Below are positions 560-56,229 of a stretch of 64,000 nucleotides of DNA, piece by piece. The DNA lies in the NCBI RefSeq assembly GCF_029873635.1, contig NC_080423.1, forward strand, positions 102,796,991-102,860,990, read 5' to 3'. The notes under the pieces are model-generated. The model was not told where the DNA came from, ran no database searches, and worked only from the letters and a program-made list of their open reading frames with translations. This DNA comes from Malania oleifera. Taxonomy: Eukaryota; Streptophyta; Magnoliopsida; Santalales; Ximeniaceae. Positions within the stretch are counted from its first letter, which is position 1; each line of letters starts with the position of its first letter. A program made the position numbers and the translations under genes.

Positions 560-2846
560 TGTTGACCCTATGGGTCATACCCTGTTTTGATTATGACAAA
601 TACTCAGGTATTTAATGATTGTCAAGTTGATGTGCAGGTTTATCTTGGCAGTATCCTATGATGGCACTCGGAGACCCGGAGGAAAACGAAGACTCTGAAG
701 ACCCTTGATATAATTGATTTGTTGTAGTAATTTATATTCGGGTCTGTAATATTTAAGTAGGAAAGGTCTGTAATAGTAAATAGGTCTTTGGTTTGTAATA
801 AGCTCACACACATCACATGCATGATGATACGTAAGCTCAAACAAACCATGAATGACAATGGACTTTAGAAAGACCTTAGGGTTTTTGGTCGACCGACATC
901 AGACTTTTTCGGTGTCTCTAAATTTGACCCCAAGTGACCTTAGGACACACACATATGTTTATTAGACACTTAAAATAGACTTATTTGGGTCAATTCGGGA
1001 CCGAAATGCACACTTGGTGCACTTTCGGTCGACCGGCCAATTCAGTTCAATTTGGCCCGGTCGACCGAAACCGGTCCGGGTCAACTATTTGACCCAGGCC
1101 CGGTCGACCGAGCCTTTATAGGTCATTTGACCTCGGTCGACCGAACCACCTGGGAGTCAACAGTTTGACCTCCCGGTCGACCGACTAGATTTGTACTCCA
1201 ACTACCTGGTCGATCGAGGGGTCTTGGGAGGATTCCCAACGGTCTGGTCGACCGAGCCACTCAGTTCAAAATAGCCCCGGTCGACCGAACCTCGGAGTTT
1301 TGGAAAATAGCCCTTGCCCGGTCGACCGACCACTCAGTTCAAAATACCCCTGGTCGACCGAGCCACTTAAGTCCTGGTCGACCAAACCATTTCTGGTCGA
1401 CCGGACCTCTCGGGTTGCTCCTATTTTTTTACTGCAATTAAATGGTTTAAGCAGGGTTAAAATATTTGAAAGGTCATTAAACTTTTCTAATAATACCCAA
1501 TAGGTCCCCAACGGTCATATTTTCTCCCTTGCCTATATAGATGAGTTTATTTAGGATAATTAGCGAGGGGATTAAAAATATTAATTAAGAGAAATTCTCT
1601 GAAAATCCCAAATCCTATAATACTCATATCCAATCCCCATTCACTCATGCTTACCTTCTTCGATCTCTTAAATCCTCTGTAAGTCGATTGAGTGTTTATA
1701 TTTAATAGGTTTGCTCTCCCATTCATATTTGATTGATTTATTTTCATTGAGAGCTAAACCTAAGTATTCTTAGGAGACTTTGTTAATAAGTCTATCCTAA
1801 GAAAACTTTGATAGAGCTTCTAAGATTTGCACCTTCATTGCAACATCTTAAGAAGATTGTATTTGTTTTTGGTTGCAAAACATTTTCAAAATACATACAA
1901 ATATCTAGTGTGCTTTGTCTTGATAAATCTTTAAAGAGATATTTGTTTGTGTGAGAAAAATCTTTGTTACAATATTCATTGATTTATATCCATAGTTGAA
2001 TACAAAGATTAAACTCTTTTTGCAAACCAAATTTATACATTGCTAAAGCTTCATATACATATATATATTGAGAAAACTTGTTGATTGAAATATATGAAGT
2101 TTGGATAATATCTTTGTTTGAGCACTTAGATTGAATAGCCTGTGATACAAAGATCATTTAGGTTTGCACTCTCACGTACTCATTACAACGATAGTAAATC
2201 TATTTGAGAGTTGACATCTTAGACCACATTGAGCTTACATATTGAATCATACTGTGGTGTTTGTAATTGCACGTATTTGGGTACACATCCACTTTACTTG
2301 AAAGCCTATTCATTGTACCATTTGATTGTATTTCAAATACTGTTGTATTTCCAGGCACGGGCCTGTAGAGGGAGACTAGCCCTGGAATAGTCCCGGATTG
2401 GCTTAGACCCGGTTAGGAAAGCTAGGTGCGTCGTCCTGTTAAGGCGTGTAGGTTGAGGTCAGCCCCGCTAATTGACCTGGTTAAGGTTGAGGTCAGCCCT
2501 GTGTTAATTTGACCTGATTGTAAACGGTGCCGCTCCACCCTTAAGTGAGCTATTAGTGGAATCCTCTAGCTTGCGAGCTTGAGGCGGGGACGTAGGCACA
2601 GTTGACCGAACCCCGATAACATATCGTTTGTTTGCTTATATCTCTCATTTTATATTTACCGCACGTGTATGTTATGGGTGAATGATGCGTATGACTTAAT
2701 TTTCACAGTATATTTATCTACGCGTTTGGAAATTGCATAGACTGATCCTAGGTTGTGTACATACCATGTTTGCATAGATCAACCTAGGTGAAAAAGTTTA
2801 AAAAATTCCAATTCACCCCCCCTCTTGGCAATACACCAATTCTAAC

Positions 2847-8968: not shown

Positions 8969-11040
8969 TTAATCTTTCTAGCCTTTCTTTCGACGCTTAG
9001 GTTAATCGAAACCCTAAATCACACACCCTTTTGGACTAATAAAAAAAAATCTAATAGATGACTCGATAAAGTAAATCATAATATGAATCAACAAGACCCT
9101 TCAAGGCTTATCAAATTGAAATTTTTTCATTGAAAACTTGGGTGTTCAACACTCTACTCTTTCTCTCTCTCTCTCTCTCATCCAACTTGAACAATTTTCC
9201 CTAAATGGATCGTTGTTATTGTTGAAAATAGTTTGTAAATAAAGTTACTAATCTCAAGTAAGCACAATGGTCGTGGTTCAAATGTCAAAACTTGTTTTTT
9301 TTTTTATGTCTACTACAAGGATCGTCATGGTTATTTTGGGAAGGAACAATCGATGCGTAGACCACCAATCTATTGAGGCGAAAAATCATCATTTGATTTT
9401 CACGTCCACAAACTCTTGAAGATTATTGAGGGGAAAAAAAAGTTTGATAGACCCTTGGTGATATCTATGGCTTCCATGGACGTTCAAGTTAGAGTAAGTA
9501 TGGAATGCACATATATAATTGTGAGCACACATTTTAGAGAGTGTCATCTTAGAGTACCCTTCTCTTCATGTGCTGTTTATATATAGTTTCCCTCTCCCGA
9601 ATGAATTAAATGACCATAAGAAAAATGGTTATATAATCATAAGGAATCATTCCTTACAAATCTTTATTCGTGTTGTGAGCATGTACCTTCATAAATTAAC
9701 TTTTAAATTTTTTCTTAATTTGAGAAATGAATTTTGAGTTTTGAATTTAATTTTTTGCAATTTAAAGAAAATACAGTATAAAACTATATTAAATTCCTTC
9801 AAAATTTATACGGATTCAAAAAATCCAAAACCTCTTCTAAAAGTTTTTAAATGATTATATGAATAGTTTACTATTGTAAGAATCACTCGTGAATTCAAAT
9901 TACAGCTTGGAGGATGAGTAATATAAAACTAGAAAGACTACCCGCACTTCGCAGTGAGATAATATAAAAGAAAAAAAATAAAATACATATGAAATAAGTT
10001 AAAAATTAAATCCAAATATTAAAACCAATGTTAACAATACATAATTCTTTGCGCGAGATAATATAAAAGAAAAAAATACAAATGAAATAAGTTAAAAAAT
10101 CAATCTAAATATTAAGACCAATATTAACAAAAAAAAATTGCAACTATATGTAATTCTAGCATGGAGTTTGAATGTAAATACAACCTTACTATTAGCAAAA
10201 CTGTACAGGAAAAACATATCTAAAATAGATAATTTCACTAAACATACCTTCAAAACACATATACCATAAAAAATATTTAAGAATAAATTTTTTGTATGTT
10301 TTAATGAGATTAATTGTCAATTAAATCACATAAAAAATATATCAACCTAACTTCCTCAACTAGCAAAAAACTTGAAAAATACAAAATTACAACAATATAT
10401 TATTTTAGAATGAAACAAAACATTACGCTAAAGCACATAGAATAATTAAAATTAATTCTATACTTTTATTAGATGTAAATATAAACAAATAATAAAGAAA
10501 GTAAAAACTAATAATTTAAATTTTATAATATAAAAGCATTGAAAAAGAAAGTGATGGAAAATTGTTGAATTTGGATTATTTTTTAAAAATTATTTAGTGA
10601 AATTCATTAATGTTTAAATTTTGTCTATAAAAAGAGAAAATATTTTTAAAAATAATTTTTTAAAAAAAATAATGAAATCAATATACTGAGAGGAATATAG
10701 TGGGGCACGTATGGGATAAAAAAAAAAAAGGAAAAAGTTTAAAAATAAATTTTAAAACTAGTAAAAAATAATTGGGACTTGCATGACCCCATGTTGAGAG
10801 AGAAAGGAAGGGAAAAGAAATAAGAAAGGTTAATTTTATTAAAAAAAAAAATAGTGGGGCCAACATCCACCCCCCCCCCCCTCCCTTCAACTGTAAAAGA
10901 CATAAGAAAAAAGAAAGACTTAGCACCACTTGTCGATGCTAGGACCAAAAAAATGATTTTTTAAAAATAATGGGGCCTACATGGGCCCCCCTCTACTGTA
11001 AAAGGTAGAAGCAAAAGAAAAAAAGGGGTGGGGGGGGGGG
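8969..11040. other. AT-rich intergenic spacer with local repeats
   Basis: No supported gene. It holds a CT tract (9160-9180), a diverged tandem duplication of period ~99 (9956-10140, sharing GAGATAATATAAAAGAAAAA and GAAATAAGTTAAAAA), and three degenerate segments at 10690-11040 with AGTGGGGC or ATGGGGCC next to C or G homopolymers and CTGTAAAAG. ORFs here are low-complexity shadows. Confidence 0.55.
9956..10140. repeat. Two-copy AT-rich tandem duplication, period ~99 bp
   Basis: Both copies have GAGATAATATAAAAG, then GAAATAAGTTAAAAA, then CCAAT(G/A)TTAACAA, with scattered substitutions. Confidence 0.7.
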
Positions 11041-11199
11041 GAGACCTTACCTGAGGCTAGTCAAAAAGACAAGAACCTCCCGTGAGATTTGAAAAATACC
11101 ACAAACCTCCCATTACATTTGGATTCTTTGATACTCACACCCCTTTCGAATAAAAATGCTTAACACAATTAAAAAAATTAATAGTACAAATTTGCCCTT
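11041..11199 (+). repeat. Left terminal inverted repeat of the MULE
   Basis: Read on -, this stretch carries the same ordered blocks as 17375-17543. It includes AACCTCCC and CACACCCC on +, which appear as GGGAGGTT and GGGGTGTG on -. The outermost bases (GAGACCTTACC) are only weakly matched, so the end is placed approximately. Confidence 0.7.
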
Positions 11200-11203
11200 C
11201 AAC

Positions 11204-11249
11204 AACAACGGTACCCCTCCCCAAGCTTTCTAATGCTAAGTTTGACCCT
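11204..11249 (-). pseudogene. Distal piece of the captured UDP-glycosyltransferase fragment
   Basis: On - this continues the reading frame that is interrupted at 16396. After ...FLTHTG the sequence reads SNLALESLGRGTVVV, matching the end of the plant PSPG box (usually HCGWNSTLESLxxGVPV). The cysteine and tryptophan of that box have become T and S in FLTHTGSN. The copia element plus its duplicated ACCCT lies exactly between the two pieces. Confidence 0.75.
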
Positions 11250-11806
11250 TGTTGTAATAATGATCAGATAGAGGATGCACAACGGAATAAGTCAAACAAC
11301 AACAAGAAAATGAAACACAACTAGTAAATGAGAAACAATAAGAACAACAACATGAGAATTAACGTGATTCGATAAATTCTACATCCACGGAAGCAATCAG
11401 CACAATAATTTCAATAAGAAATGTCAAAGTACACAATACACTTCACAATGATCTCTCTTTCTGTTAATACACATCCAGAAGAACATAAATAATACTCCCT
11501 CGGAGGTTTCCCTCCAAACTCCCAACCACCCCAAAGTTCCAATTCAAAATTCAAATATTTTCTCGCAGCCCAGATACACTCGTCGACGAGAACAGGGCAC
11601 TTGTAAACTAGTACAGCCACTCGTCGATGACCCCTTTTTTCTGCTCTCGGTATCTTAGAAACTCTAAACTTTTGGGTCTCTCGATATCTACTCTTCGACG
11701 AGAACAGGACACTTGTCGACGAGTCCCTACTGTGAAGCACCCTTATGTTTTTCTTCCTTCCTTTGTTTATGAAACCCCAAGTATAAGAGTCACCCCATAA
11801 ACAACA
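11250..11806 (-). repeat. Downstream (3') LTR of the copia element
   Basis: 557 bp, aligned along its length with 15832-16395. It contains CTCGTCGACGAG-like palindromes at 11577-11590, 11619-11630, 11691-11702 and 11712-11723. Confidence 0.93.
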
Positions 11807-11865
11807 ATCTTTACCTTGGCGATTATACGCCCCTTAGGAGAACCTGAAAAATATATCTAACTACT

Positions 11866-14800
11866 CTACCTTGAACTTGAAACGCTCGGTTGGGTTTGTC
11901 TCCATTCTATCAATTGGAGACATGGAGTATTGGAGACATGGAGTAAGTTCAAGCAATGCTTGAACTTTTCACTAGTCACCGATTTTGTCAAAATATTTAC
12001 TGCATTTTTAGACGTATGAACCTTCTCCAATACAAGTTTACTCGAAGTAATCAATTCTTGAACCCTGTGGAACCTCACATCAATATGCTTGATTCTAGCA
12101 TGGTACACTTGATTCTTCGCCAAGTAAATAGCACTCTGACTATCACATTGCAGCACAATTCCATCTTGCTGTAATCCCAGCTCTTTGACCAAATCGGTAA
12201 GTCATAAGATTTCCTTTGCAGTTTTGGTAATTGCTATATACTTAGCTTCAGTTGTGAACATGCTACCAGAGATTAAACTATAGATCTCCAACATATAGGT
12301 CCTCTTACAAGGGTAAAAACATAACCCGTTGTAGACCTTTTGTCATCCATATCCCCTGCATAATCAGAATCAATGAACTCTATAACTAAAGAACAACCTT
12401 GTTGCTTGCTGAACATGATGTCATATCCCGATGTACCTCGTAAGTATCTGAATATCCATTTGACAGTTTCCCAATGCTGTCTTCTTGGATTAGAGAGAAA
12501 CTTACGTACCACGCTCACAGCATATACCAAGTCTGGCCTCGTACACATCATGACATACATTAAACTCTCCACAGCGCTAGCATAGGGGACCTTTGACATG
12601 TCCCGGATATCCTTATCTGTACTTGGGCAATCTGTAGTAGATAACTTATAATGACTTGCTAGAGGTGTACACACCGGTTTTGCATCAGCTATGTTGAACC
12701 TCTCTAGCATCTTCTCCACATAACCGCCTTAAGATAACCACAACCTCCCTGCAGTTTTGTCTTAGCAAATCTCCATCCCAAGTATTTTCTTGGTTGAACC
12801 AAGATTCTTCATGTCAAACTCCTTATGCAACAGTTCCTTTAACTGATTCACCTCAGTTAAATCTTTTGCAACTATCAACATGTCATAAATGTACAATAAT
12901 AAGAAAATAAGAGAACCATCATTAAGTTTGTTCACATATACACAACAATCATACTCACACCTCTTGTAACTAATCTTGATCATGTAGGAATCAAATCTTT
13001 TATACAACTACGTCGAAGACTATTTCAACCCGTAGAAAGATTTCTTCAACTTACAAACTAACTTTTCTTTCCCTAATTCACTGAATCCCTCTGGCTAAAC
13101 CATATAAATATGCTCCTCAAAGTCATTGTGAAGAAATGTTGTCTTCACATGCATTTGTTCCAAATGAAGATCATAATGGCCTACCAACACCAACACTATT
13201 CTGATCAAAGTGTGTCGGACTACAGGTGAAAAGATCTCATCATAATCTATTCCCTACTTCTGTGAGTACCTTTTTGCCACCAACCGTGCGTTGAATTTCT
13301 CTCACTCCTTTTCTGAAATTACCTCCTTCTTCTTATATACCCATTTGCAACCTATCAGTCTCTTCCCATCTAGAAGTTCCACCAAATCCCAAATTTGATT
13401 TTTATGTAGTGATTCCATCTCCTTAATCATCGCACCCATCCACCTACATTTCTCTTAGTCGTGCACTACCTCTTGAAATGTAGTTGGATCGTTGCAACTA
13501 GTAAGGAAAGCATAAGAAATTAACTCTTAAAATCCATACTTTGGTGGATGTCTAATAGTGCATCTGAATCTTCGTATAGGAATATCGTCGACTTGCTGGT
13601 TTTCCGAGCTAGAGCTCCCTACAACCATAGGACCATGATCATTGTCATTGTCCTGAGCTTCCAAATCCACCTGCACAACATGTTTCTCTCTGCCCTCTTA
13701 TTTTTGTTCATCACAATCTTGAGTACGCTTCACCATAGCCTTCTCATCAAAGACTACATTCCTACTAATCACCACCTTGTTTGCCATCGGGTCCCACAAC
13801 TTGTACCCCTTCACACCCTTTTGATATCCCAAAAAAATGCAACGACGAGACTTCGGATCAAGCTTAGACCTATCCTCACTAGAAACGTGAACATAGGCTA
13901 GACACCTGAATACTTTCAATCCGGAGTAGACTGCTGCATTTCTCATCCATACCTCTTCTACCACTTTACACTCTAGTGAGCCCTTGGTGATCAGTTTATC
14001 AGAAAACAAGTCATACTAACTACCTCGGCTTAGAAGTTCTTCAGTAGCCCTGCATTAAGCCTGAGACGCCGAGCTCTTTTAACTAGAGTTCGGTTCATCC
14101 TTTCAGCCACACCGTTTTTCTGAGGTGTCTGGCGAACGGTATAGTGTCTTTTAATGCCCTGCTGCTCACTAAACTCCATAAACCAAGAATCAGGGTACTC
14201 GATCCCATTGTCCGACCTTGGATATTTGATTCTCCTCCTCATCTGGTTTTCCACTTCTGCCTTCCACAACTTGAACCTGACAAACGTATTAGACTTATGC
14301 CGCATGAAGTATACCCAGACTTTTTGTGAGTAATCGTCAACAAAACTCACATAATACACATGTCCACCCTTTGATGCAACTCTAACCAGGCCCCAAACAT
14401 CGGAATGTACATAATCAAGAATACCTTTTGTCTTGTGTACAACTGATTTGAATTTTGCCCTGTTTTGTTTTCCAAGAACACAAATCCTGCAAAAGTCCAG
14501 CTGACATGATTTCAAACCCTTCAAAAGTTTCCTTTTGTTTAATTCCTTCATACCATGTTCCCCTATATGCCCAAGACGCATATGCCACAAGATGGTCTCA
14601 TTAGATTCAACATTTATGGCTGCTACTCTACATACAACAGTAGTCCCCTGCAATATGTAGATATTTCCATCTAATTTTTGGCCTTTCATTACCGTCATAT
14701 TTCCTTTCCATACTTTCATAACCTCACATTTGGACTTGTAATTGAAATCATTACAATCCAAGGTGCCAAGTGATATCAAACTCTTCCTTAACTTCAGTAT

Positions 14801-15806
14801 ATGTCTTACATTGATTAAGGTTCTCACAGCACCATCAAACATTTTTATCTTAACATTTCCTATACCAATGATTTTACAAGAAACATCATTACCCATAAGA
14901 ACTGAACCCGAGTTCATTAACCGTAAGTGCTGAACCACTCCTTGTTTCGAGTCATATGGTAAGAACATGCCAAGTCAAGTATCCAAGAGTCCGTAAGGTT
15001 ATCCGACCCCGAAGAAACTGAAAGAACATCACCATCACTACAAACTGAACCTCCTTATTGAACCACATTCACTGATTTCAAAATCTTCTCATGCTTTTCA
15101 ACATTCCCTTTCTTCCAATTCAAACACTCCAGTTTGACATGCCCTTTTTTACCACATTTATAACATCAGATTTCATTTTTCTTCTTTGATTGAGTACAAG
15201 ATTTCTGGTTTGACCCACTTTTAAACTTTCCTTTCCCACACTCGTTGTTACTTTTCACCACAAGTCCTTCTCCTTCATCACATATTTTCAGCATTTGATG
15301 AAAATTTAGTAAAGCACTTATTACCTTTTCTAGATCAAGAGTCTCTTTTCCCCACGTAAGAGTGGTAACTAGATTTTCATAGGTATGAATCGATGACAAG
15401 GAGTTTAGTAACATCAAAGCCTTATCATCTTCATCAAACTTAACATCAACTCTCATCAAATCACTTATGATTTGATTAAAGGCATTAATATGTTGATATG
15501 AGTTTGATCCTTCAACTATCTTAAGCCAATAAAAACGCTGCTTAAGAAAAAGTTTATTATTGAGTGATTTGGACATGTATCGACTTTCTAACTTTTGGCC
15601 AAACACAAGCGTATTGTAGAAGCGGCCTTTTCTTGCAATTCTCCCCATGTTGCCTCATCCATTCCATCCGGTTGGACACCAAGTAAAGCCTTAGTCATTC
15701 CTTGTTGTACAAGTATATCCTTAACTCTCCTCTGCCACAAATCAAAATTTCCAGTTCCATTGAATTTGACAATGTCAAATCTTGTAGAAGATGATCCCAA
15801 TGCCAT
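11866..15806 (-). pseudogene. Copia gag-pol polyprotein remnant
   Basis: Gag starts at 15806 (MALGSSSTRF...) and includes the UBN2-type region to about 15166. A TGA directly precedes the zinc knuckle CYKCGKKGHVKLEC (about 15115-15165). The protease site reads SWILDLACSYHM, so the usual D(S/T)(G/A) triad is altered. Integrase (14968-14030) keeps HSDVWG, RSDNG and NGVAERMNRT, the three acidic positions of the DDE core. Reverse transcriptase (13007-12762) has LLLYIYDML where YVDD is expected, so one catalytic aspartate is tyrosine. RNase H pieces (12719-12273 and 12192-11866) keep DSDYAGD and DSQSAIYLAKN. Several frameshifts separate these blocks; it cannot encode an active polyprotein. Confidence 0.93.
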
Positions 15807-15817
15807 GACAACAATCT

Positions 15818-15828
15818 CTCTGATACCA
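15818..15828 (-). other. Primer-binding site of the copia element
   Basis: TGGTATCAGAG on -, complementary to the 3' end of plant initiator methionine tRNA, 3 bp downstream of the upstream LTR end. Confidence 0.85.
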
Positions 15829-15831
15829 ATT

Positions 15832-16395
15832 TGTTATAATAATGATCAGATAAATGATGCACAGCGGAATAAGTAAAACAACAATAAGAAAAATGAAACA
15901 CAACTAGTAAATGAGAAACAACAAGAACAACAACAAGAGAATTAACGTGGTTCGACAAAGCCTACATCCACAAAAGTAATCGGCCCAATAATTTCACTAA
16001 GAAATATCAAAGTAGACAATACACTTTACAATGATCTCTTTCTTATGTTAATACACACCCAGAAGAGCATAAATAATACTCCCTTGGAGGTTTCCCTCCA
16101 AACTCCCAACCACCTCAACATTCTAATTCAAAATTCAAATATTTTCTTGCAGCCCAGATACATTCATCGATGAGAATAGGGCACTCATCGACCAGCTAGA
16201 GAGGACCACTCGTCGATGATCTCATTTTTCTGCTCTCGGTATCTCAGAAACTCTGAACTTTTGGGCCTCTCGCTATCTACTCATCGACGAGGACAGTGCA
16301 CTCATCGACGAGTCTTTGCTGTGAAGCACATTTATGTTTTTCTTCCTTCCTTTGTTTATGAAACCCCAAGTATAAGAGCCACACCCTAAACAACA
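15832..16395 (-). repeat. Upstream (5') LTR of the copia element
   Basis: 564 bp. Its palindromes at 16163-16174, 16209-16219, 16280-16291 and 16301-16312 read CATCGATGAG or CATCGACGAG where the other LTR has CGTCGACGAG, the pattern left by CpG deamination. Confidence 0.93.
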
Positions 16396-16725
16396 ACCCT
16401 GTATGTGTCAAAAACGCCCCCATCGCTAGGTGTAAACGCACTTTCTCCTACAGACACCACTTTGCTATTAGGACACTCTCCTTCACCTCTCGTGCAAAGT
16501 TCTCGAGCAGCGTCGTCGTCTTGTCTATCACCACATCTGATCGTAGGATCCATAAAAAAACGGTTGGCAATAGATCGCGAAGGAGGACTAGTGGGTTTCG
16601 AGCTAACTCTAGGTGATGAGGTTGAGGGGTCCGGTGGTGTAGATGCAAGGGAACTTGGCGGTGAGGGCACGTAGGACTTCTAACTCAAAGTCATCAAAGG
16701 TGTTGATGATGATGGTAGTTGGGAA
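16396..16725 (-). pseudogene. Captured UDP-glycosyltransferase fragment (UGT85-like)
   Basis: On - the segment reads INTFDDFELEVLRAL, then KFPCIYTTGPLNL, matching the mid-protein NTFDDLE...PIYTIGPL region of plant UGTs. After a deletion of several tens of codons it continues FLWILRSDVVIDK...ESVLIAKWCL, a stop codon, EKV...MGAFLTHTG, the FLWxxRPD...WCPQEQVL...FLTHCG core leading into the PSPG donor-sugar box. The blocks lie in different frames, include in-frame stops (TAG in place of the glutamine after WCL) and have lost the PSPG cysteine, so no enzyme is made. The frame continues at 11249 beyond the copia insertion. Family identity is strong; the UGT85 subfamily is my recollection of motif wording. 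Confidence 0.82.
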
Positions 16726-16739
16726 AGGCAAGATTCGAG

Positions 16740-17165
16740 GGGATGATCAACGAAAGGCTTCTGTAGCGAGGCAATGACGACAAGATAGATGGTTGAGTAG
16801 CCGATAGGGGGCATCAGCGACCAAAGATAACCGACCCCGCTTTCTGTCTTGATTCCTAAAGAGCTGTTGTTCCAAACGAGGGAGTAGTTGAGTGGCGGCT
16901 TTTAGAGTTTCGCCGCCAGGAGTGACGTCCTTGGCAATGAGAACCTACTTGGAAAAAGAGTTTTTGTTGGGTTGGGCATATGAGTAGAGCATGAAGAATT
17001 TGTCGATGGTCGGAATCGGCGACGAGTCGAAGAATGTGGTGCCAAGGTTGTTGGGACCACCTTCGAGAGCAGCCCCAACTTTAGTGAAAGATAAAATTTG
17101 ACGCACTTGCAGCCTTCCTTCAAAATCAATGGTTCCATTTGTAAAACCCCCCCTACTACTCAAAT
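16740..17165 (-). pseudogene. Captured VPS62/DUF946 gene fragment
   Basis: On - the first frame reads GGFTNGTIDFEGRLQVRQIL, then EGGPNNLGTTFFDSSPIP, FFMLYSYAQPNKN, a TAG stop where this family has tryptophan, and VLIAKDVTPGGETLK. A single-base frameshift then leads to PLNYSLVWNNSSLGIKTESG, GYLWSLMPPIGYSTIYLVVI and ASLQKPFVDHP. This order matches the N-terminal half of plant vacuolar sorting-associated protein 62 (DUF946), a family of unclear function. The fragment stops at about 16740, where the UGT piece begins. One nonsense codon and one frameshift make it a pseudogene. Confidence 0.85.
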
Positions 17166-17325
17166 CAGCAAGAACTTAATCATTTCAGTGCATGCAAAAT
17201 TTTAAAATTAGAAAGAAGCAAAGAGGAGAGAGAGAGAGAGAGGGAGAATATGGTTGCAGGATGCGTGGTGGTGGTACGAGGTGGTCATTTGGTAATAGAG
17301 AAGGAAGTTGGAATGGAACATCAAT
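17166..17325 (-). other. Probable captured leader of the VPS62 fragment
   Basis: On - this contains a (CT)n tract (complement of the (GA)n at 17224-17242), as in plant 5' leaders, between the MULE TIR and the VPS62 coding start. It has no coding signal of its own. It may be the 5' UTR of the captured gene or MULE-internal DNA. Confidence 0.4.
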
Positions 17326-17543
17326 GGGCAAATTTGCCCTATTAATTTTTGAACGAGCAACCTTGATTTTTGAAAGGCAAATTTATCCTATTAATTTTTT
17401 TAAACGATGTTAAACATTTGTTATTAGAAAAGGGTGTGAGTGTTTAAGGATCCAAATATGAGGAGAAATCTGTGTCATTTTTCAAACTTTATGAGATTCT
17501 CGTCTTTTCGACAAATTTTAAGAGAGGTGAGTGTCTTTTGTCC
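17326..17543 (+). repeat. Right terminal inverted repeat of the MULE
   Basis: Inverted match of 11041-11199. The innermost block GGCAAATTT...CCTATTAAT occurs twice (17326 and 17376), a local duplication of the inner TIR edge. The outer end near CTTTTGTCC is followed by an A-tract. Confidence 0.7.
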
Positions 17544-19735
17544 AAAAAAAAAAAAATACCTAACGTCATGTGTCAGTGCTGAGTTGAATCTTTGTGCTCA
17601 CAAATCAAGAAAGAGAGAAGAGAAATGTTAAAAAAGAAGAGATAAAAGAAAAGGAAAAAAAAGTTAAATTAGGTAAAAAAATTTGGTGGTGACATGTGTC
17701 CCACTAAGATTTAATTTTAATGTATAACTTACGTGTTGCATATATTATAGTGGAGATATTTGTCCTTGTCTTTCTTTTGTGTTCAAGGAGTAGGAGTTTG
17801 ACCTTTACAATTGGTAAAAGTATGCGGCTTTCAACGTGTCAGTCAGCAGGATATATATTTTTTGTCAGATTTCCATATATGCCCTTCTTTTTTTCTTTTC
17901 TAAACAAATTCTTTTTTCAATTGTTGTGTGTGACTTTTCCGAAGAAACAAAATTTTGATGACCCGAAATTGCAATTTGAGCAAGTTTTTCGGATCCACAC
18001 AACACAAAATGCCTCAAATTCTTATTCAAGATGCATACTAAAATAATGAATTTATTATTTAAACATCAGATTTCAAGCTCAATTTTTATATCTGCACAAA
18101 TTATCTTGAAGTAAGAAAAATAATAATTAAAATTTGAGACACGACACAAAAATTGAGCTCGAGTTTTTGACTTAAGCCTTTTATATATATATTGCTTCTT
18201 CTACACAAAGCAATAATCATGAAAGCAAATTCTTCTTCTTTAAAAATCGACAATCATGAAAACGGATTTATTATTTTACCTATTTAAAAGCAAGAGTTAT
18301 ACCAAAATTATATCTCGACTATTTATTCAACGATGATATTTATTGCGGTGTGGGCTGACATTTCGTGGAGAGAGTGGGAGGGGCATCGGAGCCGAACACG
18401 CATCCCTGATGCCCGTTCAGGAACAATTGACATAATTTTTTCTGTCCACGAAATTTCATTAGACATAATTTGTGTAGTGAGAGGTGACTCATTTTTCTCA
18501 TTCTTACTACTTTTAATCCATATTAACTTTAGAATTTGTGATGTCGTATAAAAGTTTCAAACTTAGACAGTGAATATCGACAAAATCTCCTATTTTTATA
18601 TTATGGATTATCTTCATTTGTAACGACCTATTCATCAATTTGATTTATTTCACTTCTCGACCTACTTTTATATATGTGTGTGTTTTAAGTAGTGGTTTGG
18701 ATATATTTTTGCTCTTCATTTAATGTATCATTATTAAGTAATTTATACTCTTCTCCATAGTATTTATTTCACATTTTGATTATTAATACTTTTGCCCAGA
18801 CTTGTACACATGTGATTTAGACACTTGCAATGAAGGCTATAGTCAGGAATAGTGAGTTAGTTACTGTGAGAGACAAATGAGATAAGAATATATATAAAAT
18901 AACTTAGAATGAGATACTAAGGATAGTAATCTTGAATTTGTCAAAAGAAATTATCTACGGCCGCATCAATGGACAGAAAATGATTTATATAGTAAACCCT
19001 TCTCAGTGGGACTTAAGACTTAGTTTGTCATTTGTTCTTGTTGTATGTTTTATTTTTACTTATTATTTATAATTTCAAAATTTTCAACAAACTATCCGCC
19101 TCTAATTTTATTTCTTAATAAAAACCCTTTTACTATTTACATATTGTACGGCAATTAAAAATATTTTAAAATTGTATTATATAAATTTTTAACAAATGAT
19201 ATTGTATTTTAGAATTTAGATTAGCTTAAATCTTAAATTTAAATATAAATTTGAATACAGTATAATACAAATTTATATAAAATTTAATTTAAATCTATAT
19301 AATGTCAACTCTAAAATTAATAATTCCAAACACAAGTATGTAATTTAATTTTTATCCATATTTTTTTTTACAAATGAAATATAATAATTATATTTTTAAA
19401 AAAGTATTAATCTTCTGAGGTTAAATTCACGAGACGTCTCAATATAACATCTTGTCAGACATCTCTTGAAATATTGCTTCAAATAAGATTAACATTTTAA
19501 CATATTTTCGTTATGTTTTTTTTAAAAAAATTGTTCTTTAATCCTTAATTAAAATTATGTACAATTGTTACAAAATTAAATAAAAGTCTTAATTTTGTGG
19601 TTTTTTAAAAGTTAGAACAAAGAATAAATATTATCTTTTACAATTAAACAATTAATAATAATATTTTTTCAAAATTTTAAATTAATCAATAATGCACTTT
19701 CCATAACAATTAATTCTTCGTTTTTTTTTAAAAAA
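17544..19735. other. AT-rich intergenic region upstream of the TMEM135-like gene
   Basis: No supported gene. Short ORFs at 17720-18046 and 18333-18551 lack recognisable motifs. The DNA nearest 19735 is very AT-rich and presumably holds the gene's promoter, but no single TATA box stands out. Confidence 0.5.
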
Positions 19736-22700
19736 ATGAAATCACTTCAGAGGTTACGCTCTCTCTCTCCCCTCCCCTCCTTTATTTCTCCCTCCCTTTT
19801 CTCTGATGCAGAAAGCGTCAGTTCTATCTCCAAAATGCCGTCCCTCTCGCCGCCGTCTCCTCAGGCGCACGACAACTCCGACGGCGCAGCGGAGCGCCGG
19901 CTCCAGGAAGCCGAGGAGCGGTTGCGAGAGGCGATAGAGGAGCTGCAGCGGCGGCAGCGGCTGGCGCGAGGCCTGCACCCGCCGTGCGGCCACGCTGACG
20001 AGTCGTCCTGCATCGCCAACGCGATCGGCAACCTCTGCCAGAGCTTCCTCCTATCCTACGGCGTCAGAGTCGGCATCGGAATACTCCTCCGCGCCTTCAA
20101 GCTTGTGCGGAGGCGGTCCTATTCCTCACTTATCGATCTCAAGGTTCGAATCGCGATGGTACCTTCGTAGTTAGTTGAATAGTTAATTGTCATTTTCTAT
20201 GTTTATTGGTTATGGAAAACGATGTTATCTGTGGATCTTTGTCACTGATGTGATTGTGAGTAGTGACGCTTTTGAAATTGATGGCGCATCATTATGGTCG
20301 ATTTTCTGTTTGTTGCTGGAGGAGACTCAAGTGCGGTCCTGTGCTGCTTAAATGTCTTTGACGGGGACAAATTTGAGGTTTGAGGGTTCGTTTAATTTTG
20401 AAATGAAAATAACTTTTACATTGGGAGCAGGAATTCGAGGACTCAAATTTGGATTTTTACGGTTAGGAAGGGAACTCAATATAATTTCAGATTACATTTT
20501 TATCTAAATCTAAGTGCGAACCCCAAGCTCCCATTCACAGGGTTAGTGTTGGTTTAATTTTCTGGAATTTCCTTGATCAGCAGTTCTGATAGTAGCGGCA
20601 ATATCATTGTGTCTCAAGAAAGGAAAAAATTATGGTTATTCAGAGTGGGGTGTGGGGATTGGAGATACAGAATGTACAGTGAAGTACGTTTTTCATTGCT
20701 AGGACTACTGTTGTCACCATTCACCATCACAATTACTATTTTATAGTGGGGATAAAGTTATTAAAAATTGATAAGTCAGCTGCTATTGTTCAAGCATTTT
20801 GGATCCTAGTTTGAATGTGAAGACTCTTTAAATGTAGTAGTCAAGAAAATAGAAATTGATGCGGATAGTTTATTAGTTGCTGTGCTTTTCATGATTGGTG
20901 TTTGGTGATGTTGTGGTATAAGTTCAGCCTTGAACATGAATTCGATGAGATGCTTGTTTATTAGAGATTGAATACCGATATTTCTAGGGATATTGATATT
21001 CAATTGTCTGCTTTTGACATACTTGTTTGCTTTTCTTGGTGGAGGAAAAATGGTGTAATGGCAATCAAGGTTGCAGTCTTGCGGATTTATGTTCATTATG
21101 ACAAAGCTTGCATAGGAATTTTGGACAAAAAAACTTATTATTTGGATGAAGAACAACATAGTTTTTGTTAAAGCGTGATATACATTGTTGGCCCACAACA
21201 GCTTTTAGGTTATTTGGTATTCTAATAGTTTTTATCTCAAGTGTGTTGTCATGGTTCTTCACTTATTTTAGAAATTTCATGCTTGGAATTGAAGTTCTTT
21301 TTGGCTATTTTCGTAGTATAGTTTATTTTTTAGCTGCTGGTCATATGATGATTGTTGAGGTAGTGAATGCTTCTTCTTTATGGGGGCTGTTGTTTGATCT
21401 AAATGGCCTTTGAATAGTGGTTATATTTAAACTGATTTACTAAACAAGTCAATTGGTGAGACATTAAATCATTTGGTGGCAGCTTTGAATTTTCTTAAAA
21501 TTCATCTGATAGAATCATGCTTGGAAACATGTCTAATTATGTAAGTGGGAAGTTTAGAGGTTTCTTTTTTCCAATTTTATCTCTTCTATAAATTGCAAAT
21601 GACAAAAACCTCAACACCCTAGTGGTTAATATTAAAGTAATAATTTTTTTTTATTTTTGTATAAATATAAATTATATTATTTTATTAATTTATTTATAAT
21701 TATTAATTAAGTATATGGCAAGAAAATAATTTTTTTATATTTATTTAAAAACTTTAATTTTGGTACTTGTTCGTTAATTTTATCAAATATTTATGCTACT
21801 AAGAGTTGAGAACGTTAAAATTTAAAAACAACACGTATTTAAATATTAAATATCAAATAGTAAAAATAATTCATTGTTTAGATTTAGTGACCAATTCAAA
21901 AAATGGTTCACAAAATCATATTTGAATTTTGTTTTCAGCACTTAACACATAATTTTACCAAATGCTCCCAAAATGTCATTTGATCCACTAGTATGTCTTC
22001 TATAAAGTGGGAACCACATGTTATTGCATTTCATTAGCTGTTGAGGTTTAATTTACCCATTTTGTTGCTAATAATATTCTTTTTTATCATTTTCTTTCTG
22101 CGCAAAGGGTGATGAACTTAGTTGCTGGTGGTGCCAGTTCATACCTTAAGTCTCACGAACTTCATGTGCAAGCTGGTTGAGAAGGTAGATTTTTCTTTGA
22201 GGATAAGAAAATTAATGATGGCATTCAGGGGATCACTAGTGCATTTGGAGAGGGTTTTAAAGGAAAACATCAAGAATGTCATGGCTCAATTTGTGGTACA
22301 TGATCGACCGTGACTACATCCAAATTCTGATGGAGGCATTAGGCCTAGTAATGAAATAGTTTTGCAAAAATCTTCCTTTTTAATTACAAATAATTATACA
22401 GGAGGAGAGAGCATTGGGTTAAAAATGCTAGATGAATACAAACTGTGTGTGTGCACATGTGCATGTATGTATATGTTCTATAATACAAACGAAAGAAGAT
22501 TTACATTCACTGGGCTCTTTTGTTCGGCTTTATTGACTTTATATACAACATCATTCCCACATGCCAAACTAGTTCTACTACATATGTTCACCATCAAATA
22601 CACATGCTTTGTGTCTTCATGCCAAATACTGTTCTTTTGGAAAACTCAATAAGTACAACTTTTCTTCAATACAATTGAACATGAAATTATTGAGGAAATA

Positions 22701-33084: not shown

Positions 33085-36000
33085 TACTTACTGATGGAAG
33101 CTCAATGATAGGGACATTTTGTATGTAGAGAGAGGCAAGTTTTGAATACCCATGTTTATGACTTTAAGGTACATCTTGCTCTTTTGGGGACTCCAAGATG
33201 TATGTTTGTATGTCACATAGGATTCCCACAAAAATAGTATTGGGGATGTGGCTCATATTCAGAGCGGATCACATGTACCGGAGGAAGCTACATGAAGCGA
33301 GGGACAATTGCATGAGAGGAGTCTGCAGGTCTGAGGGTAAACCGTTGACGATTACTGTTGGTGCAGATTATGTGATTTCAAATCGGGGGCTTGTAGATTG
33401 GGCTAAACCGGAGGGATTTCTCCGGGGATTGACACAGATATGGTTTAGATATACTCATGGTTTTAAATAACGGCCGTTACGTAGCGTAACGGCCGATACG
33501 TAACGAAAATCGGAGGCCCCGAAACCGATACGGGCCGATAATGCGGTTCGGAAAAAATTCACGGCCGTAACGGCCGTTACGGAGGCGTAACAGCACGTAA
33601 CGGCCGATTCTCCAACGTTACACTTCGTAACGTCCGTTACGGACCGTTACATGGCCGACAGGTCGCAGATTTGCTGAAGGATTTCTGCTGCAGGCAGCAG
33701 GCAGCAGGCAACAGGCAGCAGCGCTGCTTTCCCCCTCTCCCCAGTCCCCACACTCATCTGCCATTCAAAGGGTAAAATGGAAAGTTACAAACTGACCTTG
33801 AAAATTTGTTGGCGCTTGGCGGAAGCAATAAGAAGGCTTCGAAGCCTGAGAATGAGCACACCGAGGCTACCGAGCAGATCTACTCATCTTGCAGTTCCAG
33901 CAACTTGGCGAGTCACCAGCGACGGCGAAAGGTCTGCAGCAGCTCCGCCAGTCGTCGTAATCGGCACCTTCCTCCGCCAGTCGTCGCAGTCGCCACCAGC
34001 CAGCCTCTCGTTTTAAGCTTCGGAGGCTCGGAGCTTGGAGTCATCGCTGCTTTGTGCTTCGCAGTTCGCAGCCTTCGCTCCTTCGAGTTCCCTCGAATCC
34101 CTCCCCTCTCTCGGTCTGACTCGACTACCAGGCCCAGCGTATGAGACACTCTAACACTAACACTCAACACCCACAGCACTTTTCATTATGTTTTTTTTTT
34201 TTTTAAATTATATTTTGTTGTTCACAGCACTTTTCATTATGTTTTTTTTTTTAAATTATATTTTGTTGTTCCCACAGCACTTTTCATTATGTTTTTTTTT
34301 TTTTTAAATTATATTTTGTTGTTCCCACAGCACTTTTCATTCTGTTTTTTTTTTAAATTATATTTTGTTGTAAAATAGGTTTGTTAAATTGAATTAAAAA
34401 AAAAAAGTAATTTAATAGAGTAAAAAATTAGAAATCATTAATAATTATGTAAAATAAAATTTTCTTAATTTATAAATATTTTAATTGTATTATATTTTTT
34501 GAAAGATAATTATGAAAATTAATTCCATGACATAGCAAGCAATTATTAATAGTATATAATTAATATTTTTTAAGGTTAGTAAATAATTAATATTTACCAA
34601 TAATAATTGAAGCCTTTTTTATAATAATATTTGAATATCAATAATCCACTACTGCATTCACCATCTAAACAAAGCATTAAAATAATGTATGTACACAAGA
34701 CATCCATGTGATGGCATTTTATATTATCTAGGCTTAATTGAGCTCTATTTTTCACCATTCTTAAAGAATTCTAAGGAATACTCTGCACAATTATTATAAT
34801 ATTTAGTCTTAGGATTTGCCAAATTCTAAGGAATACTCTGCACAATTATTATAATATTTAGTCTTAGGATTTGCCAAACTTACAGAAATAAAATTAATTC
34901 ATGGCACCAATTGGCTAACATACTATTTATGTCAGCTGGACAAAGTGGTTATTTTGATAAAGAAGATATCATATTCACTCCCATCTATTGAAAAAATATT
35001 AAATAATGTTCATATTATAAAATTAAATTAAATTAAATAACATCTGTCACCCATTTTATGTTACATGTGTATCTACTTGCCATTTCTTGAGTAGGGTGAC
35101 CCTGTTTATTAATATTTTTTAAGTTTTAAAACATTATTTTGACCTTAAATTTAAAATTAGGTAAAATAAATGTTTACATCTATTTTTTGTTTTTAGTTAT
35201 CAAATAAAGTAAAAATTGATAACTTAATAATAAAAAAATTAACCTAATAGTTAATACATTAATAAATCTGATTTTTACTAATTACTACTGGAATTTGTAG
35301 AAAAATTTAATTTTAATCCATATACTGAGAAAATGCTTAAAAAATTAAATAGTCAATTTGTAATGTATGGATCTCTATTTGTGATGCTATGATGTATATG
35401 AAAGTAGAGCAAAAATCTTTTTCACCTGTTAATTTCTTATAGTTATAAATGAAAATAAAATCAAGCTATGAAAAATAATGAAAATATCTTTTTAAAGATA
35501 AAGGAATATATTTTTTTTGTAATAAAATATCTAATATTTTATAATTTTGTTTATTTAAATATAAAAATAATAAACATTACTTATTATTTTTAATCAAATA
35601 TTATACTTTATTTTTACGTAATAAGTATTTAAAATTAGGACTATTTAGTACTTATTATTTAATATTTACTAAATTACTAATTATATTATTCCTGTCATTG
35701 TAGAAAGGTTGTAACTTTGTATTTTCTTTATATTTTGTGTAGAGATCATCAAATTAAGTCTATCAATATGTCACGTGATAGAGGAAATGAAAACTTACCT
35801 AGTGAGGATATTGGATGGCATTTTGGTTCTGCGGTAGACGGTAATAGACATGTTATTATGTGTAAGTTATGTGGGAAGATAATCAAAGGGGGCATTACAC
35901 GCTTGAAACAACACTTGGCACATAAAAAGGGTCAAGTAGCTGGATGCTCAAATGTGACCACACAAGTAAGAGAACAAATGATGAAACATCTACAACAGTA

Positions 36001-39000
36001 TGCTGAGAAGAAAAGAGATAAACAAAAAAGGCAAGAAGAAGCAGAAGCCCAAATTAGAGGAGATTTTGAGAATTTGAGCGATGAAGAAGACTTAGAAGAA
36101 GAAAGTATGAGATTTGCTCGACAAGAAAGCATGCGATCACAACAACAATGGGAAGAAAGACAAAGATTTCGAGCAAGAACAACTGGAAGGGGTAATATTT
36201 ATGAAGAGGGAGGTGGCTCTGGCAGTGGTGCTACCAGTGGTTTCAATAGAGCAGGAGTTCGATCTTATAGTGGTCGAGAAGCTGAAGGTAGTGGACGACA
36301 ATGGATCAATCCTGATGCCCCTGAAGCTAGACTAAAGGCAATGGATCCTATTTTAGAAAGAAGCAAGAGTGCGAAACAACCAAAACTCAACACAAAGTTA
36401 CTGAAAGGTTTAAGAAGTAAATTAGGAAAAGCGGTTGGAAAATTCCTAATTTATAATCGGATTCCAGCGAATGTAGCTGACTCTCCATTTATGCAGCCTA
36501 TGCTTGATATTGCTGCAGAGGTTGGAAAGGGGGTGAAGGGTCCATCACCCTATGAGATATCTGAAATTTATTTGGAGCAAGAGTATCAAGAAATGAAAAA
36601 TTATATAGCTTCTTTTGCTGGAATTTGGAAGGAAAGAGGTGTAACACTTATGTGTGATGGTTGGTCAGGACCAACTAGAAAACACATTATAAACTTTTTA
36701 GTTTATTGCGATAGAGGCACCGTGTTTCATAAATCAGTTGATACCTCTGATGTGCCAAGCAGAACAGCTGAATATTATTTCAGGTAATTTTCTAATTTTA
36801 ATTGTATATGCAAATAGTATTATGGACTTGCATGTTTTTAATTAAATAGTAGTAATTATTGAATCTATAATTTCATTTCAGATTAATGGACGAGGTGGTT
36901 GAAGAAATTGGAGAGGAGAATGTTGTTCAAGTAGTGACTGATAATGAAGCTGCAATGAAGGTAGGAGGAAAATTATTGATGCAGAAGAGGCCCAATCTCT
37001 ATTGGACAGCATGTGCAGCTCATTGCATAGACCTTATTCTTGAAGATATTGGTAAGAAAAGTAACGTGAAGAAGGTCTTAGAAGATGCAAGAACAATAAC
37101 CTCATTTATTTACAATCACACATGGACAGTGAATTTCATGAAGAAATTCACAAATAATAGAGAGTTACTTCGCCCTGCCATCACTCGATTTGCCACAAAT
37201 TTCATTGCTTTGGAGACTATTGTCAGGCATAAACAAGCACTAAGGGAAATGTTTACATCTGATGCTTGAAAAAACTCAAGGTTTGGAATGGCAAAATCAG
37301 GCCCAGCATATGATTCGAAGAAAATTATCTTAGGCAAAGAGTTTTGGCAAAAGGCCTCTGATATAATTAAAGTGCAAGAACCCTTGGTGAAAGTTCTTAA
37401 ATTGGTTGATGGTGATGAAAAACCAACCATGGGCTTCATATACGAGGCAATTGATAGGGCGAAGTTGGCCATTCAAAAAGATTGCCGGTTTTACAAAGAC
37501 TATTGGAAAATTATTGACAACCGGTGGAGTTTTCAGTTGCACCAAGATTTGCACGCTGCTGGTAAGTGTAAATCAAATACAATTTCTTATTATTTTAACT
37601 TTTAAATTATGCATAGTTGCATTAGAAAACTATTGATTAATATGTTTCTAAATTTAATTGTAGGGTATTTTTTGAACCCACAATTTCTTTATGGTGCCCC
37701 ACCCTCTCCTGAAGTTGCTAGAGAAGTCATGGATGGAGTTAAAAAAGTAATAACCAAGTTGGTACCCGATATAGATACTCAAATTCGGGCTATTAATCAA
37801 GTAAGTATTGGTTCCATTAAATTGAATAATGAATTGTTCTAGTATTCTGTAATACTTTCAAGAATAATTATTAATACATCTAATTAATTAATTATATTTC
37901 ACAATCATCCTTTTTTAGTTGTTGCTATATCGAGATAGGCAGGAGACTTTTGGAACCCTATTGGCTCAAAGGGCAGTGAAACAAACAAATCCTGGTAAAT
38001 ATGACTATATAGCTAAATAATGGAGAATTACTCTATTTTCTCTCTTTGTGTTTAAATTTGACTTTTGAAATACGCTATACTAATATAAAACTCTTTTTAA
38101 TTATTAATGCAGCTGAATGGTGGATTCATTATGGCTTGTGTGCCCCTGAACTCCAAAGAATAGCAATTAGAGTTCTTAGTCAGACCACATCAGCTTCGAA
38201 CTGTGAGCGTAATTGGAGCACCTTTAGCCTCATCCATACGAAAACAAGAAATAGATTAAAGTACATGAGACTACAAAAACTTTTTTTCGTACATTACAAC
38301 ATGAGGTTAAAGTTAAGACGTACAATGAGAAGAAGCCAACGAGAAATTGAAGAGGGTTTCAATCCTATCAATTTGGACTACATTTTCGAAGAAGATGATC
38401 CTTTAAGTCAATGGTTAGAGGAGAGAGAGACACCACTACTCGACGGTCAGGACAATTCAAATTGGTTAAATGAAGAGGTTGGTGGTACTACAGAAGGAGG
38501 TGATCAACTACCAATAAACGCGCATGATGATTCAAGTTCAAGCCCTGAACGTACACAAAGTGATGACAATCTTGGTTTGAGCCCACCAAGTGATGATGAT
38601 GGTAATAGTGGTGCTGGAGCTGGGGTTGGGGGGGGTGGCAGTGGTGGTGGTGGAGGCGGTGGTGTAGAATATAATTATGGATATGATACAGGGACATCAT
38701 TTGGAAGGGATATATATCCTTCTGATCCTTATGGACTACATGACATACCTGAAAATTATGACTTGGGTATTCCTCCAGGGAACCAATCTTCATAACCCAG
38801 GAGAAGGAGTGCTCGTGGTGACCCTAACGATTCTACTGAAGATTCATATGGTGTGGTTCGTAGTTTTGGCGACTTTGGTTTAAATGGTTCATCATCACAA
38901 TCATATGGATCTCATCCAGCATATCCACATTATGCATCTCGTGACTCACATTTTTATCCTAGTGGATCAGGAATCTCAGGATCTAGTGAGTCTTCTTCTA

Positions 39001-53429: not shown

Positions 53430-54760
53430 AAGAAGGATCACGATTCTTTAACGGATGTAGGTGCTCGCCATTCATTGATGGTTTGTACTTTAACTGAATC
53501 CATCCGTATATGGCCCTCTTCAATAATATGCCCCAAGAATTTAATACACTTTTGAGTGAAAGCACACTTCTCCCCTTTTCAATATAATTGATTTTCTCAG
53601 AGTTTTTGAAAAACCTACTGAAGGTGATCTTTATGTTCTGCTAAGGATGCGCTGAAAACCATTATATCATCAAGGTAAACGATCACAAATTGATCAAGGT
53701 AGTCCCAAAAAACCTGATTCATTAAAGAACAAAAGGTAGCAGGTGCATTTGTTAGCCCAAAAGGCATGACAAGGAATTCAAATGCTTCATACCAGGTGAC
53801 ATAAGTAGTCCTAGGTTCATCTCCCTCTACAATGCGCACTTGATGATATCCCGATCTCAAGTCCAGTTGAGTGAAATATTTAGCTGTACTTAACTGGTCA
53901 AAAATATCGACAATTAGTGGAATGAGATACTTGTTGCGAACCGTCACCTTATTAAGAGCTCGATAATCTACACACAAACGCAAACTTCCATCTTGTTTCT
54001 TATGGAATAACACTAAGGCCCCAAAAGGTGTTTTTGATGGGCGGATGAATCCTGCTGCAATTAGATCATTTAGTTGCTTTCTAAGTTCAGCTAACTCAGG
54101 CGCGCCATTCGATAAGGAGCACGTACTGACGATTTTACCCTTGGCAAAAGCTCAATTTCGTGGTAAATCTGTCGTCGAGGTGGTAAAACCCTGGGTAGCT
54201 GTTCTGGGATTTACCTCCCTCAACTCTTCTAAAACTTCCTTAATTTCAACTAGACATTCACCTATTTCTTCATTTTCTGAAACTACCGGTAGAACCACGA
54301 AAGAAGGTTCTCCCCTTTTTACTCCCTTCTTGAATTGGAGGGCTGAAAGCAACTTCCTCTCATCGAAAGTGTTGTACGCTGTGGGAACCGCACAAGGTGT
54401 ATCTCCCATTATGACAAGGCAATTCGCAGCTGGGATCGGCATTGAGCATGTCACTTTAAGAAAATTCATCCCCAATACCACATCAAAGTCATTGTGGGGT
54501 GTCACGGTGAAATCAATTGTTCTAAACCACGATCCCATTTGGTAGGCTACTTTAGGTGCCACTCCCACCATGGTTAACGCTTGAGAATTCACTGCTTTCA
54601 ACTTCCCCACATCCTTATCTACTTATAATTCTAACTGTTGAGCTTCTGAATCAGTAATGAAATTATGGGTGGCCCCTGTATCAATCATGACCTTAATTTT
54701 CTTTCCGTTCACAAGTAGATCAACGTACATTAAACCCTTCTCCCCTTCTCCTGAGACTTG
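53430..54760 (-). pseudogene. Gypsy protease-reverse transcriptase remnant
   Basis: The protease starts with VMIDTGATHNFI (about 54695 on -; catalytic DTG intact) and includes VVLGMNFL (about 54470). RT 54013-53615 has [47 protein letters not shown] and the catalytic YLDD ([11 protein letters not shown]). It continues, after a stop, with FLGHIIEEG (about 53520). Stops and frameshifts separate the blocks (for example near 54020 and 53610), so it is not translated as one protein. Confidence 0.88.
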
Positions 54761-54908
54761 TTGGTAGCTACTTGGCACTTTAATGCCCCTAAAAATCTCA
54801 ATGCTCCCACCATATTCTGTTTTTTTCTAAGGTTGCTGTCGAGGTTTCGGTTTCCCCTCGAAGGGCCTTTAGAACATTCAAAGTCTTTCGTTCAGGGCAT
54901 TCCGCCAC

Positions 54909-55388
54909 TCAATGCGGTCCCATGCAAAGGAAACATGAGACTTGGCACTCGACGCTCCCCACCACCTGTTCGTCTGCCCCTCCACTCCCTAATCTTTTAT
55001 CTTTCCAAGAACTATTTATCTCCCTGTCCTTTCCCCCATTTGTAGGCTCATACACTTTATTGGGCCTAGAATCATTATTGGTGGACATGGGAAAATTTCG
55101 CTTCCCAGAATTGTTTGAAAAATCATCCAACTGTTCAGCAGTAGCGAAGGTGGCAGAGAGATCACTAGCACCTTGCCGGCGCAGTTCATTCTTCAGCCAT
55201 GTCTTCAAACCCCGAAGAAAATGAAATAACCTGTCTGATTCGGTTATGTCTATGATGTCCAACATCAAGGCCTGATATTCTCGAACATAACTCCTTATTG
55301 AGTCGGTCAGTTGCAATTCCATTACTTTGCACCGTGCTATGTACTCTACATTTTCTGGGTAGAATTGGGTCTTCAACGCTTGTTTCAA
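54909..55388 (-). pseudogene. Gypsy gag remnant
   Basis: It reads MKQALKTQFYPENVEYIARC, DSIRSYVREYQALMLDI, LFHFLRGLKTWLKNELRRQG and ends at the zinc-knuckle start CFLCMGPH, the retrotransposon gag domain of gypsy elements. Upstream sequence (55388-55614) is broken by stops. Confidence 0.85.
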
Positions 55389-56229
55389 CCCTTCCCAAGT
55401 GTTAATGACACACTTATTGTGCTGAATATCATTCTAATTAGTTCTCCACCACAATTTAGTATCCCCAACCAGGTATACAGTTGCCATATTTACCTAGTCC
55501 GCTTCTAGATCCACTTATAAGCACATGAAGTAGTGCTCCATACCAAAGAAGAAATTATCCAGTTCCTTTGCATCTTGCGTACCCCCAAAACTTTTAGGTT
55601 ATGGTACCTTTAATCAAAAACCCTCACTTGGATCTGCAATCGGCCTTTGGGCTATTTGTGCCACTGCATTCACTTTCACCGTCATCTCTTGTAAATCCCT
55701 CTGAACTTGGTCCACAACACTTTGGACATTGCCCATCTCCTTCAAATCTTCCTTCAAAGCAGTGATGGACTCCTTAACATCTTCTGCAAGGAAATCAAAA
55801 TTATCCTTTAGCTCCCATAAGGAGCCCTTAAGCTCTATTGGCTCTCCTCGTTGGGATGAAAGAGATGGCAATATGCCCTCAATATGTTCCAGCCTACTCT
55901 CAAAGGCTTCCAATTGCTCGATACTCCTCTAGAAGGCCTCAAGCTCTATTGGCCTTTTCTCCAAGGATCTTACACATGGAATGAATTTTTCAAGTTTCTT
56001 AAGTCTCTCTACAAATTTTGATACCTCATAGAGATTTCCCCTAGGGGTTTTCTTCAACGGCCTCAAGCTCCGTTGACACGCCTTTCTCCTTTATCAATGT
56101 TGCCACCAACCCTTGGAGTTCACAACACGTTGTCTCCAAGGTTACAAGTTTTGTCTCAAGTGCCTCAATGTGCTTAACTTTTCCTGACTTGTTTCTCATG
56201 TTACCACTCATGGTGCTCGCACATACTGT

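Follow-up and report, generated by a model that had tools for sequence, protein, structure and literature searches.

Stepwise capture of UGT85-like and VPS62 gene fragments, very probably by a Pack-MULE family of Malania oleifera, with later copia insertion into a decayed copy

Results

A transposon copy holding two gene fragments

We analysed a window of 64,000 nt from Malania oleifera (NC_080423.1), to which the coordinates of all parts refer. Positions 11041-17543 very probably represent a decayed copy of a non-autonomous family of Pack-type Mutator-like elements (Pack-MULEs), which took up fragments of a UDP-glycosyltransferase (UGT) gene and of a VPS62 gene in separate steps and which, in this copy, was later interrupted by a copia retrotransposon. 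An earlier interpretation made from the letters of the window alone (the sequence-only reading) had placed MULE-like terminal inverted repeats (TIRs) around two unrelated gene fragments of the same orientation, and both statements were borne out, since the inverted repeats score far above shuffled sequences and both fragments lie on the minus strand. The TIRs, to which no strand is assigned, cover 11041-11205 on the left and 17367-17543 on the right, with the outer right end at about 17543, and were delimited by their match to each other and by the same TIRs in related copies. Their aligned parts, 11060-11205 and 17512-17367, are 78% identical over 148 columns (E 2e-26), with an alignment score of 161 versus a best score of 38 among 200 shuffles. 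On the left, the outermost sequence has degenerated into a run of G at about 11025-11041. The TIR and junction alignments further revealed an extra copy of an inner TIR segment (17335-17366, no strand) beside the VPS62 junction.

The VPS62 capture (16752-17334, minus strand) gave two colinear matches to the Pfam family Vps62, both above the cut-off (E 9.8e-10 and 6.8e-8). An open VPS62 gene was found on contig C2, with an open frame of 539 aa (Pfam E 1.1e-219) and a first exon recognised by eye; here and below, a parent gene means the nearest open relative found, and V and U coordinates count along the gene strand of the loci with the VPS62 gene (L013) and the UGT gene (L024), respectively. 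The window fragment is 81% identical to this gene over V5365-5941, its last 3 nt being extrapolated. With splice positions inferred from the sequence, exon 1 contributes its end (about 17334-17278) and exon 2 its start (about 17155-16752), and intron 1 between them contains a CT-rich tract; the whole is a contiguous genomic piece of 580 bp. Since the intron was kept, the capture was presumably DNA-mediated. The sequence-only reading had thus identified the fragment correctly but not its extent, which it gave as 17165-16740. It had also regarded the CT-rich tract as a leader in front of VPS62; a role as an untranslated leader is ruled out by the alignment of this tract with intron 1. Nor do the two genes meet at 16740/16725, as had been supposed: the VPS62 part ends at about 16752 and is followed by a 33-nt spacer (16719-16751, minus strand), which the copy alignments identify as left over from the subterminal sequence of the family.

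The UGT fragment consists of a main part (16401-16718), recognised by structure matches and gene alignment, and of a continuation beyond the copia (11202-11249), recognised by translation and gene alignment, both on the minus strand. When two UGT pieces were searched separately, the first match was UGT85H2 (2pq6) in each case, with E 8.2e-5 and 1.1e-3. When the pieces were joined together and across the copia, the E-value for UGT85H2 was 2.2e-17 and the match was colinear through FLTHxG..N...ES, confirming that the fragment resumes on the other side of the copia and that the insertion lies inside the plant secondary product glycosyltransferase (PSPG) box. Against the UGT identity stands Pfam UDPGT, which remained below the cut-off even for the joined UGT (15.3 versus 19.5 bits) and gave no match with the separate pieces. 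An open UGT85-like gene of two exons was located on contig C7; its second exon matches Pfam UDPGT (E 5.5e-27), and the first (204 aa) has no Pfam match and was recognised by eye. The captured sequence is a 667-bp stretch from exon 2 of this UGT85-like gene, from U2248 to about U2914, and the window copy has an internal deletion of about 138 nt with respect to the gene, near 16578-16568. A match of the left piece to YabP (E 0.0026) was below the cut-off and was taken as chance.

The insertion itself (11250-16395, minus strand) was delimited by its long terminal repeats (LTRs), target site duplication (TSD) and domains. The LTRs (11250-11806 and 15832-16395) have TG...CA ends and are 88.9% identical (Kimura two-parameter distance 0.122), and a perfect 5-bp TSD, ACCCT, flanks the element (left copy 11245-11249, right copy 16396-16400, no strand). 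Pfam matches to Retrotran_gag_2, gag_pre-integrs and rve correspond to GAG, GAG-pre-integrase and integrase. With its LTR pair, 5-bp TSD and copia-type GAG and integrase, the element is a copia retrotransposon. Its reading frames are fragmented, the longest open pieces measuring 151-314 aa, and the single far-end open reading frame tried (12273-12728) gave a chance-like match to DUF5568 below the cut-off (E 0.049). A minus-strand stretch of the copia contains what we take to be a primer site resembling initiator tRNA-Met (tRNA-iMet). By eye, several TCGTCGACGAG-like inverted motifs were seen in the LTRs (11570-11730 and 16160-16310).

The family in the genome

Other copies and parental loci were searched for in the 1.49-Gb assembly of the same species. 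The search with the element, in which 40 of 114 candidates were scored, returned at least 60 matches, including two more contiguous chimeras, L009 and L010; counts of loci with UGT only refer to the matches listed. The search with the VPS62 gene (14 of 14 candidates scored) recovered the gene, two diverged matches of 71% and seven TIR-element loci. Six of these seven loci also carry UGT, and at least eight further loci carry UGT only. L009 and L010 (about 1.4 kb) consist throughout of TIR, VPS62, spacer and UGT and have no transposase of their own; in the other five VPS62 loci, the window among them, 2.5-8.5 kb of other sequence interrupt the element. The same TIRs stand at both ends of copies such as L009, L010, L017, L018 and L020. 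As the two parental genes lie on different contigs and neither fetched stretch carries the family TIRs, the case that would have overturned the fusion, VPS62 and UGT as neighbours in a real host gene, was not found; the fusion recurs inside TIR-flanked copies.

The UGT piece is partly doubled in two UGT-only loci, L017 (1418-2150) and L019 (7667-7987 and 979-1378), and in L023 a copia-integrase-like sequence was seen by eye at the UGT end from about 2417. The subterminal stretch between TIR and UGT in UGT-only copies is also present in L069, L071 and L073, members of the TIR family with no UGT match among the matches listed. In L069, positions 1037-1336 (minus strand) hold other cargo, cytochrome P450-like by eye and with no Pfam or PDB match.

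Among ten elements examined, a perfect TSD was present in L009, L018 and L020 (9 bp) and in L014 (10 bp). It was imperfect in L010 (7/9), in L016 (8/9 only if shifted by one) and in L017, none was seen in L019 and L021, and the candidate of the window is A-rich, of low complexity and matches at 8/9. An anchored 9-nt comparison in six copies gave 9, 7, 6, 5, 4 and 9 matching positions; the 30 mismatched control pairs averaged 3.6. The genome contains at least 150 MULE transposase domains, all above the cut-off, and the element would have been moved by a transposase supplied in trans. The family has long TIRs, TSDs at the family level, genomic gene fragments and no transposase of its own, as Pack-MULEs do; because of its TIRs, its 9-10-bp TSDs and this Pack layout we assign it to the MULEs.

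Order and mechanism of the captures

The UGT85-like exon 2 piece was very probably captured first by a TIR element; later, in one sublineage, the VPS62 piece entered such a UGT-bearing element in its terminal region. This succession is absent from the sequence-only reading. In the UGT-only loci, the UGT starts at U2248/2249 in six of eight (L021 at 2340, L025 at 2291) and ends at U2911-2917 in five of eight (L021 at 2905, L022 at 2862, L023 at 2898). In the six UGT-carrying chimeras it begins at U2362-2365 and lacks about U2502-2648 (about 138 nt), and five of them end at U2911-2917, the window copy being cut at 2865. For the VPS62 piece, six of seven loci share the start V5365, with L014 beginning at 5381, and five of seven share the end V5943/5944; the window alignment reaches 5941, and L015 is cut at 5911. 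The 33-nt spacer has the same length in all six measurable copies; it is a remnant of the subterminal stretch of UGT-only copies, which argues that VPS62 entered an element already holding UGT. In a tree of the UGT sequences the six chimeras are grouped with a support of 93/96. Under a different order, both genes would have been captured jointly and the UGT-only copies would have lost VPS62 afterwards. The UGT tree alone leaves the groups unordered, which would allow for this, but six of eight UGT-only loci hold about 114 bp of extra UGT (from U2248), the UGT-only copies hold subterminal sequence absent from the chimera, and L022, L023 and L025 retain the stretch of about 138 nt deleted in all six measured chimeras, with L017, L018, L019, L020 and L021 lacking all or most of it. 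Loss of VPS62 could not have restored any of these, and we consider joint capture highly unlikely.

At the VPS62 junctions, microhomologies of 5 bp with the TIR (TGCCC) and of 6 bp with the subterminal stretch (CCTCCC) were found; in 100,000 random pairings, at least 5 bp occurred at a frequency of 0.006 and at least 6 bp at 0.002. The duplicated inner TIR segment precedes the VPS62 junction in six of seven loci. Template switching in the course of repair or replication, with the two microhomologies as guides, may account for the capture. For the specific course in which, after the earlier UGT capture, copying proceeded to the inner end of the TIR, jumped back into the TIR and then switched through TGCCC to VPS62 and through CCTCCC back to the element, we would give somewhat less than an even chance. 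The VPS62 piece is present at seven TIR-element loci, and the copia entered the window copy later. Divergence (K) is 0.18-0.24 among four chimeras and 0.18-0.20 between chimeras and the VPS62 gene, and this similarity fits a spread soon after capture. The copia, with 0.122 between its LTRs, arrived after the chimera had spread. Absolute ages of 4.7-15.3 million years were obtained for the LTRs at three assumed rates and were not relied on.

Coding potential of the fusion

Two fragments in one orientation behind a CT-rich leader had been described as the classic layout for a chimeric transcript. This description was not supported, the leader being an intron, the genes out of frame and the coding constraint small. 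V5944 and U2362 are 34 nt apart in six of six measurable copies (with 1-3 nt extrapolated beyond the alignment ends in the window, L010, L014 and L016), so that, by arithmetic on the exon frames of the two genes, UGT is out of the VPS62 frame in all six. Stops in exon 2 were present in three of the four copies read, none of them common to copies, and indels in three of four. The earlier view that the window copy is decayed was right. An apparent stop common to three of four copies at V5534 was discounted, its codon lying within the inferred intron. Divergence at first, second and third codon positions was 0.218/0.155/0.217 for VPS62 element pairs (four copies, over a stretch that includes some 28 nt of intron), versus 0.202/0.153/0.315 for the VPS62 gene and its paralogue. 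The corresponding values were 0.192/0.167/0.239 for UGT chimera pairs (six copies), 0.187/0.158/0.226 for UGT-only pairs and 0.306/0.181/0.494 for two UGT genes; for UGT there is a weak signal, and it does not depend on whether VPS62 is present. No open joint frame under purifying selection was found. Because of the unshared stops and indels and the nearly even divergence over codon positions, a selected fusion protein is unlikely.

A functional chimeric gene, whose VPS62-UGT transcript was selected before the window copy broke, would account for the common orientation, for the presence of a captured Met codon from within VPS62 exon 1, for a 138-nt UGT deletion that keeps the frame and for the excess of third over second positions in UGT chimera pairs, the last of which may reflect weak constraint or base composition. 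Set against the frame of the junction, the flat VPS62 profile and the scattered stops and indels, it appears very improbable. Transcription might start from the TIRs, and transcripts or small interfering RNAs (siRNAs) of the copies might act in trans on the VPS62 or UGT gene, by analogy with maize, where according to a review passage (PMC13317346) captured sequences serve donor genes as siRNA reservoirs; with divergence between element and gene already at K 0.18-0.20 (VPS62, four copies), such a regulatory role seems improbable.

Other features of the window

Remains of a hAT-type transposase with BED zinc finger, DUF659 and hAT dimerisation domain lie at 35681-38795 (plus strand), and those of another LTR retrotransposon with RVT_1 and Retrotrans_gag, possibly of gypsy type, at 53615-55433 (minus strand). 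An open frame of 180 aa at 19628-20170 (plus strand) resembles the start of a host gene and has no Pfam match. Rfam and tRNA scans of the whole window gave no matches.

Discussion

Several observations weigh against a Pack-MULE family with stepwise captures. Six of the ten elements lack a perfect TSD, and in the anchored comparison L010, L014, L016 and L017 are those with 7, 6, 5 and 4 of 9 matches, L014 being misaligned there by its 10-bp duplication, and one of the 30 control pairs also reached 7. No autonomous element with the family TIRs was found: the 40 scored TIR matches all lie more than 185 kb from the 100 transposase matches compared, out of 150 listed and of about 1000 first-look candidates each for TIR and transposase, and four TIR neighbourhoods of 4.8 kb showed no evident transposase by eye among open frames of 110 aa or more. 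L015, one of the seven VPS62 loci, has no UGT in the fetched stretch, TIRs are single-ended in L022, L023 and L025, and L010 lacks the duplicated TIR segment. Finally, the support of the chimera group is under the level starred by the tree tool, most inner branches (9 of 14) are left open, and UGT-only copies with the deletion do not form a group (4 changes). If there were no transposon at all, the window would hold two processed or tandem pseudogenes between chance repeats. This reading, in whose favour nothing was found, is refuted by the kept intron and the recurrent TIR copies, found on several contigs and in four of ten cases with perfect 9-10-bp TSDs, and we give it practically no weight.

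Passages in print describe Pack-MULEs as having TSDs of 9-11 bp and TIRs of 100-500 bp, into which, when extended, acquired sequence may be integrated, and mention a tomato family of 13+1 copies (PMC3310237). The family of the window is alike in its long TIRs, 9-10-bp TSDs, size of about 1.4 kb, intron-bearing fragments and cargo drawn from more than one locus. Material of several loci is likewise on record for Pack-TYPE elements, rice Pack-MULEs among them (PMC8903248). Given these multi-locus elements and cargo in extended TIRs, our finding is of a familiar kind, documented in good detail. In contrast to other Pack-MULEs, UGT-only relatives and copies with the second capture both survive here, and the order of capture can therefore be read. 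The copia, nested in a DNA transposon with the 5-bp TSD, TG...CA LTRs, putative tRNA-iMet-like primer site and GAG and integrase domains of known insertions of this kind, shows nothing unusual. Among the titles and abstract openings listed by searches of open PMC papers, none dealt with the window element or a VPS62-UGT pair.

Gene acquisition by Pack-MULEs was called not yet understood in 2012 (PMC3310237), and a mechanism is said to have been clarified later for Pack-CACTA elements (PMC8903248). For multicopy Pack-TIRs of animals, microhomology-guided template switching followed by transposition was proposed as the FoSTeST model (PMC8277862), with breakpoint microhomology as in our family; ours differs in being a plant MULE, and its duplicated TIR segment is compatible with template switching and no proof of it. 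With regard to gene origin, the family is a negative case, in which two genes were fused and modestly amplified with no evidence of a working product. As a plant family in which relatives survive from both sides of a second capture, donors can be identified and junctions are exact, it offers a test case for models of capture.

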